A stretch of DNA of 36,321 nt from Oscillospiraceae bacterium. Its GTDB lineage: Bacteria > Bacillota > Clostridia > Oscillospirales > Oscillospiraceae. The stretch spans positions 1 to 36,321 of the forward strand of contig JAITFS010000227.1 in the NCBI GenBank assembly GCA_031281195.1, written 5' to 3'. Position numbers and translations under genes: made by a program. Shown here in pieces: positions 1 to 27,055 of this stretch. How positions within the stretch are numbered: position 1 is the first letter of the stretch; every line of letters begins with the position of its first letter. The notes under the pieces are model-generated. The model was not told the origin of the DNA. It saw only the letters and a program-made list of their open reading frames with translations, and did not search any database.

Positions 1-1131
1 ACCTTTTATATAGGATTTGACCCAACAGCAGACTCAATGCACGTCGGACACTTTGTACCGATGTCATTTATGCGACGACTGCAAACAGCAGGGAACAGAC
101 CTATTGCACTAATGGGCGGCGGAACTGGCATGATTGGCGACCCGTCGGACAAATCGGACATGCGCCAGTTACTGACAGTTGAAAAAATAGACCATTACCT
201 TAAATGTATCAAGGAGCAAATGGCAAAGTTCCTCGACTTCTCAGAAGGAAAAGCCCTGATGGTAAACAATGCCGATTGGCTGTTGGGCTTAAACTACATC
301 GAATTTTTACGTGAGTACGGAACAATGTTTTCAGTAAACCGTATGCTCTCGGCAGAATGTTACAAAAGCCGCTTGGAGCAAGGATTAACTTTCCTTGAGT
401 TTAACTATATGATATTACAAAGTTATGACTACCTTGAGCTGCATAAAAGATATAATTGCAACCTGCAGCTTGGTGGCAATGACCAATGGTCAAACATACT
501 CTCAGGTACAGAGCTTATTCGCAGAAAAGTTGGAGCAGATGCTCACGCCTTAACAATTCCGCTGTTATTAAATAACGACGGCAGTAAAATGGGGAAAACC
601 GTTAAAGGAGCTGTTTGGCTTGACCCCGACAAAACAAGTCCGTTTGAGTTTTACCAATACTGGAGAAATGTTGCTGACGCTGATGTTATCAACTACTTAA
701 AAATGCTCACATTTTTACCTCTGGATTTAATATGGGAAATGGACACATGGAGTGGCGAAAAGCTTAACGGAGCTAAAGAAACCCTGGCATTTGAGCTGAC
801 ATCACTCATTCACGGAGTAGATATAGCCGAAACAGTACATGACGCTTCAAAGGAACTCTTCAAAACAGGCGGAGCAGCAAACATGCCATCAATGCACCTC
901 GTAAAAACTGATTTTGCTGATGGAACTATCGACATACTTTCCTTATTAGTCAAAACTGAAATATGTTCATCAAAAGGGGATGCACGCAGAAATGTTGACC
1001 AAGGTGGTGTCGAAGTTGACGGCAAACAAATTAAGTCAACTCTAACAACGTTTGACTACGACGACTTCAAAGACGAAGGCATCATAATCCGCAAAGGCAA
1101 AAAAACCTTCTGCAGAGTAGCGTTAGTGTAA
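1..1131 (+). CDS. tyrS: Tyrosyl-tRNA synthetase, 5'-truncated by the window edge
   Basis: Frame is open from base 1 (TFYIGFDPTADSMHVGHF); HIGH-like motif HVGH, GGNDQWSNI and KMGKT (KMSKS-like) motifs; C-terminal S4-like region. Stop at 1129-1131. Confidence 0.95.
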   Translation, partial: TFYIGFDPTADSMHVGHFVPMSFMRRLQTAGNRPIALMGGGTGMIGDPSDKSDMRQLLTVEKIDHYLKCIKEQMAKFLDFSEGKALMVNNADWLLGLNYIEFLREYGTMFSVNRMLSAECYKSRLEQGLTFLEFNYMILQSYDYLELHKRYNCNLQLGGNDQWSNILSGTELIRRKVGADAHALTIPLLLNNDGSKMGKTVKGAVWLDPDKTSPFEFYQYWRNVADADVINYLKMLTFLPLDLIWEMDTWSGEKLNGAKETLAFELTSLIHGVDIAETVHDASKELFKTGGAANMPSMHLVKTDFADGTIDILSLLVKTEICSSKGDARRNVDQGGVEVDGKQIKSTLTTFDYDDFKDEGIIIRKGKKTFCRVALV

Positions 1132-1132
1132 T

Positions 1133-1247
1133 GTAATAATATTCTTATGATAGTCTCTTTTCCGAAACGCTGAGCCTCCATGCTCAGAGTTTCGGCGCTA
1201 CGCCATCCATGGCTACGCTTTCCGAGACCATATAAGAATATTATTAC
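1133..1247 (+). repeat. Structured element E1: ~25-nt imperfect terminal inverted repeats enclosing two hairpins with TCCAT loops
   Basis: gtaataatattcttatgatagtctc (1133-1157) is complementary to gagaccatataagaatattattac (1224-1247); inside are ccgaaac-g-ctgagc-ctccat-gctcag-a-gtttcgg and gcc-atccat-ggc. Homologous to the element at 26916-27036. Confidence 0.75.
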
Positions 1248-1335
1248 TAATCTACAACCACTATATATAGTGTTTATTCGTTATGTATTTACGCATTAAA
1301 ATGTGGTGAATTGTTAAAATTTATGGTAAATTGCA

Positions 1336-1429: not shown

Positions 1430-4400
1430 GTGAAAAAAGTCAGCAGTAAAAAGATATTAAGAGACAGAATATCCTCAAATGGAAGTGTACGAACTGCAAG
1501 CAGTAACACCATAAAAAGAACCAGGCGAATCAGCAAACGTGGCGGATTTACGCTCACTGAAATGATAATAGTAGTAGTAGTTGTTGCGATAATATCCGCA
1601 GTAGCACTACCGTCTATGCTTGGCTTTATCCGTCACGGACAGCAAGTAAACCGAATGAACATAGCGCGAACCCTATACCTATCTATGCAAAACCAACTCT
1701 CACGCGGAATGGTTGAAGGAAACCTCGGGTCAATATTAACAGACGGAATTAACCCAAGTAATGTACAAAATGGTGTATTACAAAATACTAATAATAGAGT
1801 AGGACTTGTTTCGGCACGTCTTGGTGTTAATTTTCCAACTTCAACTGACGGAAGTAATTTACCGGGTGATGAAGGAAATGAACAAAGAGTATTTTACATC
1901 AGCAAACCTGCCGGCTATACTCCCACCGGAGCAGCGGCTGATGTATTTGTAGATAGATTCTATCATCTTCTCGCTGAAGTTATAAACGATGATGAAGTAT
2001 TAAACGCTGCAATCTTAATGGAGTTTAACTTTATAACAGGTGTTGTTATGTCCATATTTTACGGCGACGAAGCATCAATGAGTTTCTCGATTAACTTTGC
2101 TACAGACAGTACCAGAGCCTTTAACTACGATGGAACACCTACAGATACACTACGGGATAATGTCAACGGTCCTCGTGGAATGACACAATATATCCCATTT
2201 GCACGTAATCAAGGTTATTACGGAATAAGACAAACAAATACTGTCCAACTCCCACATATTGATATTGTAAACATATATGACGGACATGATAATCCACTAA
2301 CTGTTGGTGGAGTTGAATTAGAAAATATTTTATACGCAGAATATTTATTAGCTGACGATGATAGTTTAGCTGCATCAAACAGAGCTGATTTACTGATTAG
2401 AAGCCGCAATCTTCTTGTTATCAGAAGTGATTCAGGAAATGGTAACCTTTTCAGAGGACGACTGCACCCTTCTCAATCAGTAGTAGAGAGTTTTATAAAT
2501 GCTTTATCTCTGGGTGCGGCTAATGTATATGACGAGATTTATTGGGATAGAGAAAATGGCAGTACCGGAACCCAAGTAATAAATGTTCATGGTATTGATG
2601 TAACATTTTATAGATATATTTGGGTGCTTGACTTTATAGAAGGTGATATTTTAAGCTTAGCCGGTTTAAATGATGGTACTTTTTATTACGGACAGCCACA
2701 CAGCATACACGGCAAGCCTACAAATGCTATACCGGGAAGCACATCAACACTGATTTCTCCGGCTACAGTACGTGCCAGAATTACAAAAGATGAAGCGATT
2801 ATCACATCTACAACAGTTGCAAACACTCACTTTGCAGCCGAGTGGCCAAACAGTTCGTATGCAATATCATCTGCCAGACATTTAAACAACATTCGTTATG
2901 TACCGAATGGAAGCTTTGTACAAAACAAAGATATTGATATGAATACGTTGAGAACAATCACCGGTGGTGATCACAACTTTACACCGATTGAAGTCTTCGC
3001 AGGAACATATACAGCTACTTACGGAGCCGGACTCCAATGGCAAATTCAAAATCTTGTTATTGATACAACTACTAACCCATGGTACAACAATAGAAATGTC
3101 GGTCTATTTGCAACTGTCAGCGATGTACATAATCAGGGAATAATCACTGGTATATCACTTGCTTATGCAAGGATAACCGCACCAAACGCATACTACGTCG
3201 GCTCAATCGCAGGTGAATTAGCAGGTGGAGTTATAAACCGCAGCAATGCACTGGCTGATGTTGTAGGCAGAACCAGCACTAACCCCGCTGAAACAAACTT
3301 TACAGCAACTGGTGGTCTAATAGGAGCAATCACAGGCAGCACCTTGTCAAACTCCTATAACGCAGGATTTTTTAACACAATGAGCAGTCCACCTCATAGT
3401 CTTGTCACAAGCCACGAAAACAGCTACGGCTCAGTCACAGCATCAGGCGGAAGCATCGGCGGACTGGTCGGTGAAAATCGCGGAACAATACAGCGTAGCT
3501 TTAACAACGCCAGAGTTAATATTGCATCTGTCGATATTGAGACTGTTAGTGACCGCCATCTGTCAACAAACCCCAATCCTGTACCGGTAATTGGCAATTC
3601 ATACCTTGGTGGTCTTGTTGGCCTTAATACGGGACCACTTGCCAGAATACAACGCTCTTATGCAACAAACTTTGTTGGTGCAACAAATATAGCTACTTCA
3701 TTTACCGGAGCTTTAGTCGGCAGAAATCAAGCAGGTGCAGATATTCAATATTGTAGTGCATTACCTACCAGCTTATTACTTGTTGGTTCTACAGATAATG
3801 CAACTGCATCAAATACAGAGTTTAGAACAAAAGAACAACTAATGGACGATAATAGTTATTTTATAGACAATGGTTTTATACAAAGTACAAACATAGTCGA
3901 ATATGTAAGCAATTCACCACAGGATTATTCTCATTTATATAATATATATCCTTATCCAACATTAGCTGACAATGCATTTGATTACACAAGACCGGCATGG
4001 AGCTTTGCAACTGCACTTGGTTGGGAAGATATATTTATAAGTAATGTAAAAGAAACAACACTGGTATATTTTGAAAGATATAATGATATAGACACAGGAA
4101 ATTATGGTTTTTGTGCAAATGCACTTACAAACTCTCTCAGTGACGATGCTAATCATAGAGTAGTCAGAGCAGGGTATATGCTGCTTTTAGTACATGATGA
4201 CCCGGGTATTACACCAGAAGCAGGTTTAGGTTTTTATGTACGTTCGGTATCTCCAACAAATATTGGCTCTTGGATGAATATAACACCGGCTGTGTTTACT
4301 GATACTGCAAGTTATATGCCGGATGACTATGTCACAGAATATAAGTATGCGGAACTAAACCTTACTGCATTAGAGGCTGCTTTACCAACAGATAGTAAAA

Positions 4401-7400
4401 ATGATTGGTTAGAATACTATATATCCTATGGTGTTGGTGCTGACAACAATCCAACATTAGGAGGAGCTATGGTGCAGCGTGGTTTCTTCCATCCGCTGTT
4501 TGCAAACTCAGTTCAGGTACTCCCGGAAGAAATTCCACTACCGCAAGAACCTAATGAATTTGAAGTACGCACCCCCTGGCAGATGCAGAATATTGATAAA
4601 CTGGCTTTATCCGGTCTACCGGAGGATTATGAAATTCCGGGATCCGGTGGTTGGAGAGAAGTATTAAACCTGCAACCTTCCGGTGCTATGCCCGGTGATA
4701 ATGGTACAATGCCCGGTCGAGGAATTGGGACATCTGAAGCGGCAAATCAAGGCGTTGGAACTAGTTTAGGTTTATTAATAGGAGCAGCACAAGAGGTTGC
4801 TTATAATCCATTTACTCATGTAATTCTACCTCCACCAAGCAGTTCATCAGATACATATTTAGTTAGCAGAGAAAATCTGACACTTCATAATTACACGAAC
4901 ATAAATACACAGTATTTATATGTTGAAGGTAATCTTACTTTAACAGGCACTATTGATATGAGAGCGCTTGAAGGAGCTTTTATTACCGGTAATTTAATTA
5001 TTGATCGAGGTGCAGTTATTAACTCTGTTACAAACTTCCCCAACATTGGAGCAACAGTTGTTGTAGGTGGAGATTTGATTATTAATCAAGGAGCAACAGG
5101 TGCTGCAGCTAATGTTAATAATATGAGATTTCTCGTGAGAAATAACATCAACGTATTAATTACTGCTAGTAATATACAATTATTAAATGGTAATAGTATT
5201 TATTTTACAGTTTCATCAAATCCAACTGCAACCTCAGGAAATATCTGGATTCCCACTACACAGATGCATGGTAATGATTTTATAATTGCTACTCAAGATC
5301 ACTGGCCGCAGTTTTATTCAATACGTAATATTGATATAAACTTCCAAGGTGGTAATCCAAGAATATTCGGTGTGTATGCTGCTGCAGCAGACCTTGTATT
5401 TCGTAATAATATAGGCAACAGTGCCCCGGGCGGAGGAGTTTTTATATCAAGAAACAATACTTATGGCGGACCTGCTAGAGATATTCCCATAAACAACATG
5501 CTTGACCCGGGCGGATTTCGTATGCCTGATATTCCACCTACACCAAACCCTGTCGCAGGAGAGTTCTTATACACCCAAACACGTAGTATGAACTTTGGTA
5601 CACCTCTACAAGGTGGTGATATAGGCAATGGAACAAACGACGGTACAACACCTAATATGGATAATAGAATTGCAGTGGTTGAGCAACCATTTTACAGCAC
5701 CTACACCGGACGTGGTCATGCAGCACTAGGTTCAACTATTAGAAACAACGAAATACTATATTTAACTATAAGCACTTCGGCTGATAAAACAGCACCGCAC
5801 GGACTATTCTCAATAATTGGTTCAGAAGAAGATAGTCCTGTTACCGGTATTGTAAGACATGTAACACTTAGAAATGCAAGTATCACAAGCACTGCTCTAT
5901 ATATACCAAATGATAGTAATGCTCGTGTTCAAGTTGGTGGTATTGCAGGTGTAAATGATGGATTTATTGAGGATTGCTTAGTAATAAATTCTAATGGAAT
6001 ATATGGTAGAAATATAGTTGGTGGTATTGCAGGATTAAATCACAATAATATTTTACGATCAGCAGTACAAAACTCTACAGTTAACGGCACAGCGTTAGGT
6101 GAACATGTGCATGTAGGTGGTATTGTTGGAGTTAACGCAATAAATCCAATTGTTGCCGAGAATCCATTTGTACATGATGTATACTTCATATCAAATAATG
6201 AAGTCGATAACCCACCTGTACGATTTCTAAATACTAGTGGAACTATTAACTTTGGACATGCCGGTGGTGGCATTGTTGGGTCTAACCAAGTCTCAACCCC
6301 ACATACTATAGCACGTGCGTTGTATATAGCACCTGCACCGTTTACGAGAACACAGACAGGTACAACTGATGAAGGTGCACCTATTTATCGTACTGACATG
6401 TATCCAATCGTCGGACACGGTTATCCTGTACTTACACAAACATCAGATACAAACCCGATGGCAACCTGTTTCTATCTCTCAGGGCATCAGTATAGGCTAA
6501 TTGGAAATACAGGCACACCACATTTTCCAATACCATATAATCTCCCAGCAGATAATGAAGTAATACCATACGGTGGTGGAATAGGTATTGTCTCAGCATT
6601 TATGGAGCGAGAAAGACTAAACTTCTTCTTTAATAAAACACCAAGTGACCCGGATAGTGATGTTGTACATCTATTCCCAACGAGTATATGGGGTCAACTA
6701 GATGAAGGTTACCCATATCCATATCTTAATAGTATTGCCAGACCGGGCAGATGGCCGGTAACAGAAGGTGCTTTACACCCGATTCAGCTTGACAGATACC
6801 CATTTGTTAATCATCTTCCTGTTGACGAAATCAGAGCTTTTGAACAAATATCAGAAAGTACACTTAGAGCAAGAAATATAAACTTTGTAAACGGTAACTT
6901 TGATATGCCGCTTCGCAATCCTCTCCCACCACAAAATACGTTCGATATTGTAACTCAAACCAGTCCTTATGCGCCTAGAGACAATATTGTATCATCTAAC
7001 GAGTGGTCGCGTATCCCAGGCACTGTTCCAGGTCCTCTTGCTACTTTTCCAAATCAAAATATTTTGCTCGACGGACCAAGAATCGTACCGGGAGGAACAC
7101 CAACGGTTGGTATAGGTGGATACTGGACATACATTAATTCGGACTGGGTTCAAGGATGGAATGTCCGTCTGGCACCGGGTATTCCCACTGCAGGTTTACC
7201 ACCTGTAGGCCAACAAGGTATTGCAAATGCAATAGAATTGCAAAAACCGTATGCATCACCCGGTGAAGGCGGAAATACTTTGACAAATTATTTGGGAACT
7301 CGTACCGGTTTTTATGCTGAGTTAAATGCTCATTTCCCAAGTACATTATATCAAATACTCCCAACATCTGAGGAGAGAGAGGTTTATTACTCTTTCCATC

Positions 7401-10400
7401 ATGCCGCAAACTCCAGAGATTTTGAGAATGGTAATTTGATGAACTTTTATCTCTCAGGAGTACGGTATGACGATATAAATGAGACTTGGAGATACAATAC
7501 ACCATCTACAGATGCAAATCCTTTAGGAACTCCAACATTAATTCGCCCATGCTTGACATACCCAAGAACTTCAACAAATGTTACAAGAAGAGCTATATCT
7601 TATGGATATACTGAGTTCTTTAACCCAAATATTAATATAGAAGGAGATGTTAGTCCACAGCATCATGCTTTCTTATACGATGTGTGGGTAGGTTCTTCTC
7701 TCACAGCAGGTAATGGATTTGGTATAACATTTTATATAGATAGAGAAACACCGACAACTCAGCCAATTCCTTTATCAGAAATTGCACCATTTGGGCGTTT
7801 CGACTCGTTAGAGGCTATTCCACAAGCTTATGTCGATAATATTGTTGGTTACTGGGATGCACCTTTGATAACAACACCTGAGAATGTAACACGAGTCAGT
7901 GAGTGGAAACAGTACTACGGACTTTATACAATACCAAAAGGTCAGTTTACAACAGAGTTTGCGTATGAATCACCTTTTATACCGGGTGCAACTACTCCTA
8001 CTCATGGTAACTTCCTTGATGGAATCACATTTGAATCACCCGGATTTTTAAGTGTAAACAAAACAATCAAACGTGGCAACACAGAGGTTAAATTTGTTCA
8101 ACCAAATGATGTATTAACTGTTGAACTTGCTATACAAAACTGGGGTGAGGTTGCTGTTGATAACATAAAAGTAACAGATATGTTTGCACCATATAATGCA
8201 TATTTTGGGTATACTGGTGGACTAAATGTCTACAGAACCAGAAATACAGATGGTTCTTATAGTAATCCGATTACATTACCAACAGGAAGTGTTGAAGCCC
8301 CCTCCTTCCATAACAATTGGACATTAACTATTGATAGAATATCTTTGGAAACTCCACTAGCCACAGACGAACAGATATTTGTTGTGTTTAACATTACAGT
8401 ACATGAGGTTGTTCACGATAATGTCTTTGGTACAGTGTTAAATCCATCAGCACCAACACCAACATGGTATTACTTCTTTAGAAATCAAGCCGAGGTTGAG
8501 TATTTTGACATTGATTACTTTGGGTATTCATATCAAAATGTTCAAAAAAGAGATTATAATGCTAAAGAAAATGCTTCTGATATGGATTCTGTACAAGTAT
8601 TTATAGATTCAATAAAGCTATCAAAAACTGTTACTCCCAGAGTACAACATAATGTAAATGATACACTTACTGTAACTCTTACTGTAGAAAATGCAACAAC
8701 AGATAGTGTAGTTACTACATCCGGTATTATTACTGATATTATTCCTCCGGGCTTCAGAGTGCTTGGTTTACCTGCAGGAGCATCAGTAACAGGATCACAA
8801 ACTACAACTCAGCGTATAATAATACCTAATGTTGAGTTAAATGATGCAAATAGACTGAGAACCTTTGAATATACTCTACGTTATGTTGGTGAAGGCTTTG
8901 GTGTTATAGACACCAGCACAACTGCTGACTACAGCTTCATCGAAGGAAATGAAATGAGACAACTTAGATTCCCGCAAACGTATGTTGGAATACCGGTCAG
9001 AACTCATGATAGTGTCTTCTCATTTACCGGAGCTACATCACAATTATTTAACATCACAAATGACGATTTATTGGATGAATTTCTTAATGATTCAAACTAT
9101 AATATAGAGCCATCAGTAGTTCTTGTAGATGGTTTTGATAATCAAGGTAATCCAATATATACTGATTTAATTGTTACCGATCAATATAGAATTGAGTTAT
9201 TGCCAACAACAGATTTGGGTTCAACTCAAATACTCTTTACTCCAACACATCCTGAAGCACCACCCGTTGTTAGAGTCCAATACAGAGTCTTGTTAACCGC
9301 AACAAGAGCAGGGCTTGCACAAGGGCAAGAGTTGGTGCTGGATTCAAGAATATCCAATGTCACAATCATACCTGCTATTAACAACATTCTGGTTTACTAC
9401 GAGATGTATACCGGTGATGTATATGGATTCAGAAGTGCTGATATTGAATTAGGTCTTCCACCATTGATAGATGACACTGACGTTGAAATTCTTGAATGGG
9501 GTTATGGTGTAATAAACAGCCATGCTACTCATAATGTAGCCGGTGCTGTGCTTGCAGTATTAGGTCAAGATAATGCCTTCACATCATCTGTATCACTAGG
9601 TGATGGTGACAGTGGAGCATACCTACATAAGATTAGTGGTTTAACAACACCAACCATAGATACGTACACTGTAACACTAAACGCAACTAGTGACTTAGGT
9701 TACTTTAATCCAAGTTTTGCGTCAACTGTACGTACTCCTAGTTTAACTCCAACTCCAATAAACACATTTACCATACGTAATGCGGAGCAAAGAGGACATC
9801 TTGTTACACTGTTGGAAACAGGTGGTGAATTGAGTGGATTTACTGTTGACAGTACAAGTCATCCAAATTCAATAACAGCAACCGGAGAAAATGATGATGA
9901 TCCTCCAGTCTCAATCACTTACACATTTAACTTCCAACGTGATATGCGTGATGGATTTAGTTACATAGCACCAACATTTGCACCTTTTGCTGCATTCTTC
10001 TCATTTGGTGAATGTACATGCTGTACCTGCTATGACGATTGTGAGTGCGAAGAACCCGAACGAATCTCTATCTGTGAACACGACTGCTTAAAAGAAGGTT
10101 GCCCCAAAGATTGTAGCTATGTGTGTGCCGAAGATGATTGTGTTTCACTCGTATGTATTCTAAACACAAACTTCTTATGTGAATGTACTGCTTGCGACTA
10201 CATCTGTGATTGTGATGATGAGTGTTTCCACGCTTGTTATGACGGAGATTGTTCGATAATCTGTACATGTGATATTCACAACTGCGAAACTGACGAATGT
10301 GAGTTAGAATGTGTCCACATTTGCATCGAGGATTGTATCGATTATTGCTTACATCACTGCAATGATGATGACTGTTATATTAGCTGTCCATGTGCATTAG

Positions 10401-10564
10401 ACTGTGACTGTCCGCACGATTGCTTCGCAAGCAGTTTCTCCGACATCATGCTTGCAATGCCACTAATCGGCTACGGCTTCACCTACACAAACACCTTCAA
10501 AAACCTCAAACGTTATCTCAACGCCAAATCCCTCCGCAGGATAAATCAAGGGAATAGGAAGTAA
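1430..10564 (+). CDS. Giant prepilin-like surface protein (3,044 aa) with GLUG-like repeats, DUF11-like domains and a cysteine-rich C-terminus
   Basis: GTG start preceded by aaaggaaggg; ~39-aa basic leader then G|FTLTEMIIVVVVVAIISAVALPSM (E at +5). GLUG-like motifs: GGLVGENRGTIQRSF, GGLVGLNTG, VGGIAGVNDG, VGGIAGLNHN, VGGIVGVN, GGGIVGSN. DUF11-like: LSVNKTIKRGNTEVKFVQPNDVLTVELAIQNWGEVAVDNIKVTD and IKLSKTVTPRVQHNVNDTLTVTLTVEN...IITDIIPPGF. Confidence 0.9.
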   Translation: MKKVSSKKILRDRISSNGSVRTASSNTIKRTRRISKRGGFTLTEMIIVVVVVAIISAVALPSMLGFIRHGQQVNRMNIARTLYLSMQNQLSRGMVEGNLGSILTDGINPSNVQNGVLQNTNNRVGLVSARLGVNFPTSTDGSNLPGDEGNEQRVFYISKPAGYTPTGAAADVFVDRFYHLLAEVINDDEVLNAAILMEFNFITGVVMSIFYGDEASMSFSINFATDSTRAFNYDGTPTDTLRDNVNGPRGMTQYIPFARNQGYYGIRQTNTVQLPHIDIVNIYDGHDNPLTVGGVELENILYAEYLLADDDSLAASNRADLLIRSRNLLVIRSDSGNGNLFRGRLHPSQSVVESFINALSLGAANVYDEIYWDRENGSTGTQVINVHGIDVTFYRYIWVLDFIEGDILSLAGLNDGTFYYGQPHSIHGKPTNAIPGSTSTLISPATVRARITKDEAIITSTTVANTHFAAEWPNSSYAISSARHLNNIRYVPNGSFVQNKDIDMNTLRTITGGDHNFTPIEVFAGTYTATYGAGLQWQIQNLVIDTTTNPWYNNRNVGLFATVSDVHNQGIITGISLAYARITAPNAYYVGSIAGELAGGVINRSNALADVVGRTSTNPAETNFTATGGLIGAITGSTLSNSYNAGFFNTMSSPPHSLVTSHENSYGSVTASGGSIGGLVGENRGTIQRSFNNARVNIASVDIETVSDRHLSTNPNPVPVIGNSYLGGLVGLNTGPLARIQRSYATNFVGATNIATSFTGALVGRNQAGADIQYCSALPTSLLLVGSTDNATASNTEFRTKEQLMDDNSYFIDNGFIQSTNIVEYVSNSPQDYSHLYNIYPYPTLADNAFDYTRPAWSFATALGWEDIFISNVKETTLVYFERYNDIDTGNYGFCANALTNSLSDDANHRVVRAGYMLLLVHDDPGITPEAGLGFYVRSVSPTNIGSWMNITPAVFTDTASYMPDDYVTEYKYAELNLTALEAALPTDSKNDWLEYYISYGVGADNNPTLGGAMVQRGFFHPLFANSVQVLPEEIPLPQEPNEFEVRTPWQMQNIDKLALSGLPEDYEIPGSGGWREVLNLQPSGAMPGDNGTMPGRGIGTSEAANQGVGTSLGLLIGAAQEVAYNPFTHVILPPPSSSSDTYLVSRENLTLHNYTNINTQYLYVEGNLTLTGTIDMRALEGAFITGNLIIDRGAVINSVTNFPNIGATVVVGGDLIINQGATGAAANVNNMRFLVRNNINVLITASNIQLLNGNSIYFTVSSNPTATSGNIWIPTTQMHGNDFIIATQDHWPQFYSIRNIDINFQGGNPRIFGVYAAAADLVFRNNIGNSAPGGGVFISRNNTYGGPARDIPINNMLDPGGFRMPDIPPTPNPVAGEFLYTQTRSMNFGTPLQGGDIGNGTNDGTTPNMDNRIAVVEQPFYSTYTGRGHAALGSTIRNNEILYLTISTSADKTAPHGLFSIIGSEEDSPVTGIVRHVTLRNASITSTALYIPNDSNARVQVGGIAGVNDGFIEDCLVINSNGIYGRNIVGGIAGLNHNNILRSAVQNSTVNGTALGEHVHVGGIVGVNAINPIVAENPFVHDVYFISNNEVDNPPVRFLNTSGTINFGHAGGGIVGSNQVSTPHTIARALYIAPAPFTRTQTGTTDEGAPIYRTDMYPIVGHGYPVLTQTSDTNPMATCFYLSGHQYRLIGNTGTPHFPIPYNLPADNEVIPYGGGIGIVSAFMERERLNFFFNKTPSDPDSDVVHLFPTSIWGQLDEGYPYPYLNSIARPGRWPVTEGALHPIQLDRYPFVNHLPVDEIRAFEQISESTLRARNINFVNGNFDMPLRNPLPPQNTFDIVTQTSPYAPRDNIVSSNEWSRIPGTVPGPLATFPNQNILLDGPRIVPGGTPTVGIGGYWTYINSDWVQGWNVRLAPGIPTAGLPPVGQQGIANAIELQKPYASPGEGGNTLTNYLGTRTGFYAELNAHFPSTLYQILPTSEEREVYYSFHHAANSRDFENGNLMNFYLSGVRYDDINETWRYNTPSTDANPLGTPTLIRPCLTYPRTSTNVTRRAISYGYTEFFNPNINIEGDVSPQHHAFLYDVWVGSSLTAGNGFGITFYIDRETPTTQPIPLSEIAPFGRFDSLEAIPQAYVDNIVGYWDAPLITTPENVTRVSEWKQYYGLYTIPKGQFTTEFAYESPFIPGATTPTHGNFLDGITFESPGFLSVNKTIKRGNTEVKFVQPNDVLTVELAIQNWGEVAVDNIKVTDMFAPYNAYFGYTGGLNVYRTRNTDGSYSNPITLPTGSVEAPSFHNNWTLTIDRISLETPLATDEQIFVVFNITVHEVVHDNVFGTVLNPSAPTPTWYYFFRNQAEVEYFDIDYFGYSYQNVQKRDYNAKENASDMDSVQVFIDSIKLSKTVTPRVQHNVNDTLTVTLTVENATTDSVVTTSGIITDIIPPGFRVLGLPAGASVTGSQTTTQRIIIPNVELNDANRLRTFEYTLRYVGEGFGVIDTSTTADYSFIEGNEMRQLRFPQTYVGIPVRTHDSVFSFTGATSQLFNITNDDLLDEFLNDSNYNIEPSVVLVDGFDNQGNPIYTDLIVTDQYRIELLPTTDLGSTQILFTPTHPEAPPVVRVQYRVLLTATRAGLAQGQELVLDSRISNVTIIPAINNILVYYEMYTGDVYGFRSADIELGLPPLIDDTDVEILEWGYGVINSHATHNVAGAVLAVLGQDNAFTSSVSLGDGDSGAYLHKISGLTTPTIDTYTVTLNATSDLGYFNPSFASTVRTPSLTPTPINTFTIRNAEQRGHLVTLLETGGELSGFTVDSTSHPNSITATGENDDDPPVSITYTFNFQRDMRDGFSYIAPTFAPFAAFFSFGECTCCTCYDDCECEEPERISICEHDCLKEGCPKDCSYVCAEDDCVSLVCILNTNFLCECTACDYICDCDDECFHACYDGDCSIICTCDIHNCETDECELECVHICIEDCIDYCLHHCNDDDCYISCPCALDCDCPHDCFASSFSDIMLAMPLIGYGFTYTNTFKNLKRYLNAKSLRRINQGNRK

Positions 10565-13254: not shown

Positions 13255-13983
13255 TTAATCAGTATTCGCATACTTTTCCTCCCACATTTTCTCACTAACA
13301 TCATCCTTGTTTTTTAGGTACAGTCGCTCAGCTTCGCTAACAAAATTTGAGCGTAAATTAGCAAATGCAACCTTCGCAGCATTATCATAAATGTAGTATT
13401 TATCTTCTGACCATCGTATTGGATTTTCGTCAATGTATTGCCAAATACGCAAATAATCACTCTCATTGCGTATAATATGGTCATGGAACGACCGTTGCCA
13501 CATTGAAAAACCAATTTGTTTGGTAGTAATTGATTTCAAACTCTGTACAACTCGTGAAATAGATATTTTCGTGGTCGATTCATTTTTGTGTGTTTTATCA
13601 TGCTTTTGGGAAATTAAGGATTTTGTTGTAGGGGACGTGCCCCCGCGCGTCCCGTTGTTATTTTGCAAATATAATTCATTTTTGATAAACGCAATTATAT
13701 GTATATGATTTGGCATAATTGCGTATTTGTCAATAAACACACATGGATATACAGTATTAATTTTGCAAATCCCCTTATCAACAATCACACCAATTTCTGA
13801 TAATTCTACGCACGGGACGCGCAGGGGCACGTCCCCTACAACAACTTTACCTAATAATCCATGACCGTCTTTAACACAAATTGTAACAAAATAACAACCT
13901 GATTGTGAATAATCGTAATTGATTAATCGCATTGGTTTTCTTGTAATCATTCTTTTTAAATATATACTGTCCATACATAACAC
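13255..13983 (-). CDS. REP-associated tyrosine transposase (RAYT, Y1_Tnp family)
   Basis: YDYSQSGCYFVTICVKD, AIMPNHIHIIAFI (HxH motif), FSMWQRSFHDHIIRNESDYLRIWQYIDENPIRW. The true start may be the ATG at 13974. Confidence 0.88.
   Translation of the reverse strand: MLCMDSIYLKRMITRKPMRLINYDYSQSGCYFVTICVKDGHGLLGKVVVGDVPLRVPCVELSEIGVIVDKGICKINTVYPCVFIDKYAIMPNHIHIIAFIKNELYLQNNNGTRGGTSPTTKSLISQKHDKTHKNESTTKISISRVVQSLKSITTKQIGFSMWQRSFHDHIIRNESDYLRIWQYIDENPIRWSEDKYYIYDNAAKVAFANLRSNFVSEAERLYLKNKDDVSEKMWEEKYANTD
13628..13654. repeat. REP-like palindrome inside the RAYT gene, copy 1
   Basis: gtaggggacgtgcccccgcgcgtcccg; read on the minus strand as ...NGTRGGTSPT... in frame. Confidence 0.85.
13813..13839. 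repeat. REP-like palindrome inside the RAYT gene, copy 2, inverted relative to copy 1
   Basis: cgggacgcgcaggggcacgtcccctac; read on the minus strand as VVGDVPLRVPC in frame. Confidence 0.85.
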
Positions 13984-26886: not shown

Positions 26887-26915
26887 GAACAAACCGTCAA
26901 AATGACGGTTTGTTC
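26887..26915 (+). terminator. Perfect 13-bp stem-loop downstream of the antiporter gene
   Basis: gaacaaaccgtca-aaa-tgacggtttgttc; no following T-tract. Confidence 0.5.
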
Positions 26916-27036
26916 GAGATATTGGTGTATTTTTTCGGTTTCGTCAAGTGAAACCATGGACGGTGTAACGCCGAACCTCTGCACATGGATGTGCAGGCGT
27001 TCGGTAGAAACCGCTAAAAAATATACCAATATTGAG
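26916..27036 (-). repeat. Structured element E2, homologous to E1 in opposite orientation
   Basis: Ends gatattggtgtattttttcggtttc / gaaaccgctaaaaaatataccaatatt are complementary; minus-strand core ccgaac-gc-ctgcac-atccat-gtgcag-ag-gttcggcgttacacc-gtccat-ggt aligns without gaps to the E1 core. Confidence 0.75.
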
Positions 27037-27055
27037 AACATTTATTCTGTTTTTG

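Follow-up and report, generated by a model that had tools for sequence, protein, structure and literature searches.

A dispersed, probably mobile palindrome with a TwoAYGGAY-like double hairpin at its centre in termite-gut Oscillospiraceae

The window analysed here is a stretch of 36,321 nucleotides from an Oscillospiraceae bacterium (contig JAITFS010000227.1). A palindrome, E1, begins directly past the stop codon of tyrS (ORF 37-1131, named by NCBIfam), and a second one, E2, sits 3' of tRNA-Phe. A preliminary description, made from the letters alone, had drawn both as twin hairpins and had taken the paired differences between their stems as a sign of selection on structure. It offered three options: a non-coding RNA, a MITE-like element or a DNA structure bound by protein. 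What is E1, and do these paired changes speak for a function exerted as RNA?

Anatomy and strand of E1 and E2

The features on which the analysis is based are the following.

1133-1247, minus strand (the strand carrying the GGA loops): E1, whole T-shaped palindrome; Rfam TwoAYGGAY match at 1126-1254, minus strand
1133-1149, no strand: left outer arm of E1, conserved AATAATATTCTTAT, common to E1-type copies
1231-1247, no strand: right outer arm of E1, complementary to 1133-1149
1152-1230, no strand: core unit of E1, matched by covariance model R1; at other E1-type loci, sister species carry this stretch in opposite orientations
1153-1157, no strand: basal stem GTCTC of E1, pairing with 1224-1228
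1224-1228, no strand: basal stem GAGAC of E1, pairing with 1153-1157
1162-1195, minus strand: long hairpin of E1, 7+6 bp, with loop ATGGAG on the minus strand
1197-1218, minus strand: short hairpin of E1, GCCA-TGGA-TGGC on the minus strand, motif AUGGAU
26916-27036, plus strand: E2, second copy, of the E2 subtype with locus-specific arms; Rfam TwoAYGGAY match at 26903-27048, plus strand
26936-27013, no strand: core of E2, matched by model R1

About 180 bp downstream of E1 starts an ORF of 3044 codons with a GTG start (1430-10564, plus strand).

The twin-hairpin folds proposed for 1133-1247 and for the minus strand of 26916-27036 were recovered as described. Compared with dinucleotide shuffles, the RNA folding z-scores of the two strands were -8.8 and -10.0 for E1 and -7.0 and -7.2 for E2, and DNA folding parameters gave the same outcome for both elements. 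The two cores had been aligned as gap-free; our alignment has a 1-nt gap near the outer stem.

The elements were then compared with Rfam. At the gathering threshold, the search returned tRNA only and no TwoAYGGAY call. At a permissive threshold, E1 and E2 both aligned end to end with the TwoAYGGAY RNA family (RF01731, model positions 1-168 covered), E1 on the minus strand with 31.8 bits and E2 on the plus strand with 35.1 bits, both under the curated cut-off of 43 bits and with E-values computed over very short search spaces. L119, a homologous copy in the sister species genome G003, reached 47.2 bits and thus exceeds the cut-off. Since E1 itself lies below 43 bits, we class it as a divergent TwoAYGGAY-type element and not as a formal member, an assignment that the alignments make well supported. 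The non-coding RNA option of the preliminary description was therefore largely right, the match being to a known structured-RNA family.

Because E1 and E2 match RF01731 on the GGA strand, the RNA strand must be the reverse of the one originally drawn, on which the loops read TCCAT. On the GGA strand, the loops are AUGGAU and AUGGAC in E2, and AUGGAU and AUGGAG in E1, the last letter of AUGGAG departing from AYGGAY. Among 86 distinct cores, 85 carry at least two GGA in hairpin loops on this strand, against none in 71 of the 86 on the opposite strand. Mismatches in the arms point the same way: 59 A.C versus 7 G.T on the strand shown, equivalent to 59 G.U versus 7 A.C on its reverse complement, in cells that are not independent as the copies share ancestry.

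Copies, mobility and the search for a driver

E1 and E2 had been presented as two elements 25 kb apart. Both exist, but they are not isolated: their own genome (G000) holds about 30-45 scattered copies. A DNA search of it yielded 28 E1-like and 14 E2-like places, partly overlapping, and covariance model R1, built from 23 distinct cores, gave 44 matches. The covariance-model search suggested at the outset thus turned up a family, and extended to related genomes it detected 39 matches in G008, 76 in G013, 38 in G009, 29 in G014 and fewer in five further genomes, so that 10 of the 19 genomes belonging to this Oscillospiraceae genus of termite guts are positive. With stricter filters, no matches were found outside this genus among 151 genomes of the bacterial family. 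A 32-letter pattern searched across GTDB retrieved 33 stretches, every one in Oscillospiraceae MAGs, whose isolate codes we take to denote termite-gut samples. The plasmid collection contained no match to the element.

Several variants were seen along the way. In L031 (core 2023-2151) and L063 (core 516-643), three extra hairpins within the core produce a many-armed structure. L036, L179, L187 and L188 form a subgroup whose arms take in a further dispersed hairpin, CTACGTGTGCTTGCG..CGCACAC; at L193, that hairpin stands without a core. A second subfamily (L100-L109 and L111, with a TGTTTTC.. core and arms GTTCATAAAGGTTTAATATTTAG) lies at many contig ends, where it likely breaks the assembly. 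Spacers of G000 and G008 (e.g. L071, L073, L205) also contain many other short repeats, runs of GGGAATAGGGAATAG, and GGGGATTGCGGGTCAAGCCCGCAATGACG.

Comparison of sister species revealed sites occupied in one and devoid of the element in the other (L173/L196, L174/L195, L187/L193 and L038/L194). The cleanest pair is L173/L196, with a possible AAC target-site duplication. Palindromic remnants without core persist at L197 and L062, so loss is possible too, and in some pairs the "empty" species may once have carried the element. L034 and L173 have the same arms at different loci; arms can therefore travel with the core. The MITE-like option raised at the start proves largely correct in the sense of a dispersed, polymorphic palindromic repeat, in which terminal inverted repeats and dispersal are both found.

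Which protein would move such an element? The copies could not be linked to a transposase or any other mobilising protein, no autonomous parent with the same ends appeared among the hits of the own-genome DNA search, and a search of that genome for PF01797 gave none. The window does encode a RAYT-like ORF (13258-13983, minus strand), whose frame appears to hold copies of its own GTAGGGGACGTGCCCC..GCGCGTCCC repeat, with more just upstream. Its presence in the same window as E1 and E2, together with a GTAG/GGAG alternation beside the short hairpin on the GGA strand of the copies, would fit a REP/REPIN-type element spread by this Y1 tyrosine transposase. We find this reading hardly credible and largely refuted, as the number of copies does not follow the presence of RAYT genes and a cognate RAYT does not accompany the repeat. 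None was found in G013 (76 copies), G008 (39), G002 (11) or G012 (10), several RAYT-carrying genomes lack copies, and of 12 RAYT loci searched for a neighbouring twin hairpin, 11 gave no match and the twelfth only a weak one (L221, E 0.015). Moreover, the RAYT of the window has a different repeat of its own on its flanks, and REPs measure 20-40 bp (PMC3733652).

Core inversion and paired changes

At five loci shared by G000 and G008 (L017/L068, L020/L065, L023/L060, L027/L061 and L028/L066), the core is reversed and the flanks and outer arms are colinear; identities of 0.83-0.96 are obtained only when the core is inverted. For L023/L060, the second flank is weak (27 versus 330 for the first) and colinearity rests on a separate alignment. 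Long-hairpin stems occur among the copies as alternative modules, CTGAGC/GCTCAG or CTGCAC/GTGCAG, and at L023/L060 and L027/L061 this module differs as well, a pattern resembling conversion by another copy. L021/L073 keeps its orientation, but the element is interrupted in G008. Overall, 5 of 6 shared E1-type loci are inverted versus 0 of 3 E2-type loci (Fisher p = 0.048, on small numbers). E1 of the window has no clean counterpart in G008; as that genome shares only the right flank (L074), the flip is documented at the sister loci and not at E1. At those loci, flipping of the core within its arms appears well supported by the alignments. On a larger scale, L032 (G000) and L062 (G008) differ in the orientation of a segment of about 1.8 kb bounded by two inverted copies, which suggests rearrangement through the copies.

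The genomes are all fragmented assemblies, with several copies at contig ends, and one might suspect the core inversions to be artefacts of assembling or aligning repeated sequence. This is very unlikely, since the orientation is set by about 30 nt per junction (flank, arm and core-specific letters), well inside the usual read length, since both junctions agree on it, and since E2-type loci treated identically display no inversion.

The paired stem changes first noticed between E1 and E2 are real and extend to the 23 distinct cores, where 96.6% of the cells are paired and 7 pairs changed on both sides. The covariation score was 0.285 versus a mean of 0.122 after shuffling (0/500 shuffles), and slid controls were close to zero. 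In the long core stem, every change between standard pairs is two-sided, with no G.U intermediates.

The arms follow two regimes. E1-type copies have the AATAATATTCTTAT arms in common; 4 departures from the consensus are paired and 2 one-sided. Beyond these arms, their flanks pair no better than shuffled ones (1055/2000), so insertion of E1-type copies into pre-existing palindromes is not seen. E2-type copies may or may not have inserted in this way: L062 in G008 is a palindrome without core, and other empty sites are without palindrome. Arms of E2-type copies vary in sequence by locus yet pair with each other (12.7 for matched versus 5.3 for mismatched arms, 0/5000 permutations), and no permutation reached the observed value with better anchors or with symmetric scoring. 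One-sided arm changes are present too at shared E2-type loci.

The same anatomy was encountered in other Clostridia. TwoAYGGAY matches occur in 36 of 392 genomes of the class, several of which have at least 7. Within the single-contig genome G225, copies are near-identical and dispersed; in G300 (L268, L270 and L271), conserved cores are enclosed by unrelated, self-complementary outer arms. For 28 loci from 28 other genomes, not all above the Rfam cut-off, pairing beyond the Rfam model scored 22.6 versus 7.3 for mismatched flanks (0/5000 permutations), and 23 of the 28 exceeded the 95th percentile for outer-arm pairing.

Template switching between inverted-repeat arms homogenises the arms and inverts spacers (PMC8604942), and yields multi-base compensatory changes (PMC8794818). 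Both hallmarks, arm homogenisation and spacer inversion, are found here. Because this process gives the same pattern without selection, covariation in this family does not by itself prove selection on RNA. The step from covariation to selection on structure thus fails: two-sided stem changes without G.U, mostly paired changes in E1 arms and core inversions are what template switching produces as well.

Copies of the element are interspersed, present or absent at given sites between sister species, inverted in their core within fixed arms and enclosed by pairing arms that vary by locus, an anatomy repeated in other Clostridia. E1 is probably one copy of a non-autonomous dispersed mobile palindrome, with a divergent TwoAYGGAY double hairpin as its centre and with template switching as the process reshaping it. 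A polymerase changing template from one inverted arm to the other, or from copy to copy, would homogenise arms, swap hairpin modules and flip the core. New here are the insertion/absence polymorphism between sister species, the core inversion at E1-type loci and the locus-specific pairing arms, the TwoAYGGAY fold itself being already known. This would provide a natural bacterial case in which covariation, though commonly taken to prove RNA function, may stem from replication errors.

Candidate function and comparison with known systems

With a simple ORF caller, the spacers holding copies were tandem in 49 cases, convergent in 16 and divergent in 5; 13 of 83 copies were contained within ORFs of 80 codons or more, and such ORFs may be spurious. 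The prevalence of tandem and convergent contexts, the terminator-like appearance of some arms (L243) and the location of E1 directly after tyrS and of E2 after tRNA-Phe are consistent with a main role as transcription terminator or stabiliser of mRNA 3' ends. We hold this to be quite unlikely, as U-runs of E2-type copies lie within the stem instead of after it, and such a role leaves the conserved GGA loops and the TwoAYGGAY match unexplained.

TwoAYGGAY was discovered computationally, as set out in Weinberg 2010 (PMC2864571), and binding to CsrA has been proposed for it, without proof (PMC4333381). This proposal, the match to an RNA family, the retention of GGA loops in nearly all copies, the mismatches of one strand being G.U rather than A.C, and the presence of csrA in the genome argue for a structured RNA serving the host, either a CsrA-binding sRNA or a cis element of the 3' UTR, that would be under RNA selection, with dispersal and arm variation secondary. 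Several observations make it unlikely. The core does not keep one orientation with respect to adjacent genes (flipped at 5 of the 6 shared E1-type loci), the GGA strand coincides with the gene strand for just 31 of the 49 copies in tandem spacers (p 0.09), and copies are polymorphic between sister species and number up to 76 per genome. Co-occurrence with csrA is also loose: G000 carries csrA, as do 13 of 19 genomes of the genus, including genomes without copies, and the gene was not found in G014 (29 copies) and G012 (10 copies), both incomplete genomes.

A mobile palindrome may nevertheless engage CsrA, although this loose co-occurrence makes the link to CsrA weak. Transcription from the GGA strand would expose two AUGGA loops, a plausible binding site for a CsrA dimer, and on that condition we tentatively regard a CsrA-binding RNA function as possible. 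A broader, rather doubtful proposal is that TwoAYGGAY constitutes a class of mobile palindromes across Clostridia, with a flipping core, GGA loops that would act on or exploit host CsrA, and self-complementary arms acquired at each locus, whether by inverted copying of one flank or by landing in a palindrome. The main reading would place an unexplained Rfam family at the heart of a dispersed palindromic element, and two questions become directly testable: whether TwoAYGGAY binds CsrA, and which agent moves and flips the element.

Among known systems, the inverted terminal repeat of parvoviruses such as AAV is likewise a T-shaped palindrome with two small hairpins and an interior existing in two orientations (flip/flop). 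The analogy is one of shape only, E1 being internal to a chromosome and no Rep-type nickase having been found. Fungal mitochondrial double-hairpin elements are dispersed two-hairpin sequences proposed to be mobile; they are organellar, and are likened here by description, not sequence. MITEs share small size, lack of coding capacity, terminal inverted repeats, dispersal and polymorphism; the present element differs in that no autonomous parent turned up among the hits of the own-genome DNA search, a target duplication is at best hinted at, and the family does not have its outer arms in common. REPs and REPINs are also short dispersed intergenic palindromes at high copy with GTAG-like letters next to a hairpin, whereas the present element is longer, T-shaped and locus-variable in its arms, with a copy number that does not follow RAYT. 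TwoAYGGAY appears in the literature sections considered here as an RNA motif, with no mention in them of core inversion, polymorphism or locus-specific arms, and E1 and E2 differ from it by scoring below its cut-off (31.8 and 35.1 versus 43 bits). They resemble it in their two AYGGA-loop hairpins, the shorter being first on the RNA strand, in a long, poorly conserved outer stem, in their occurrence in Clostridia and in the strand, which is the GGA strand of E1 and E2.
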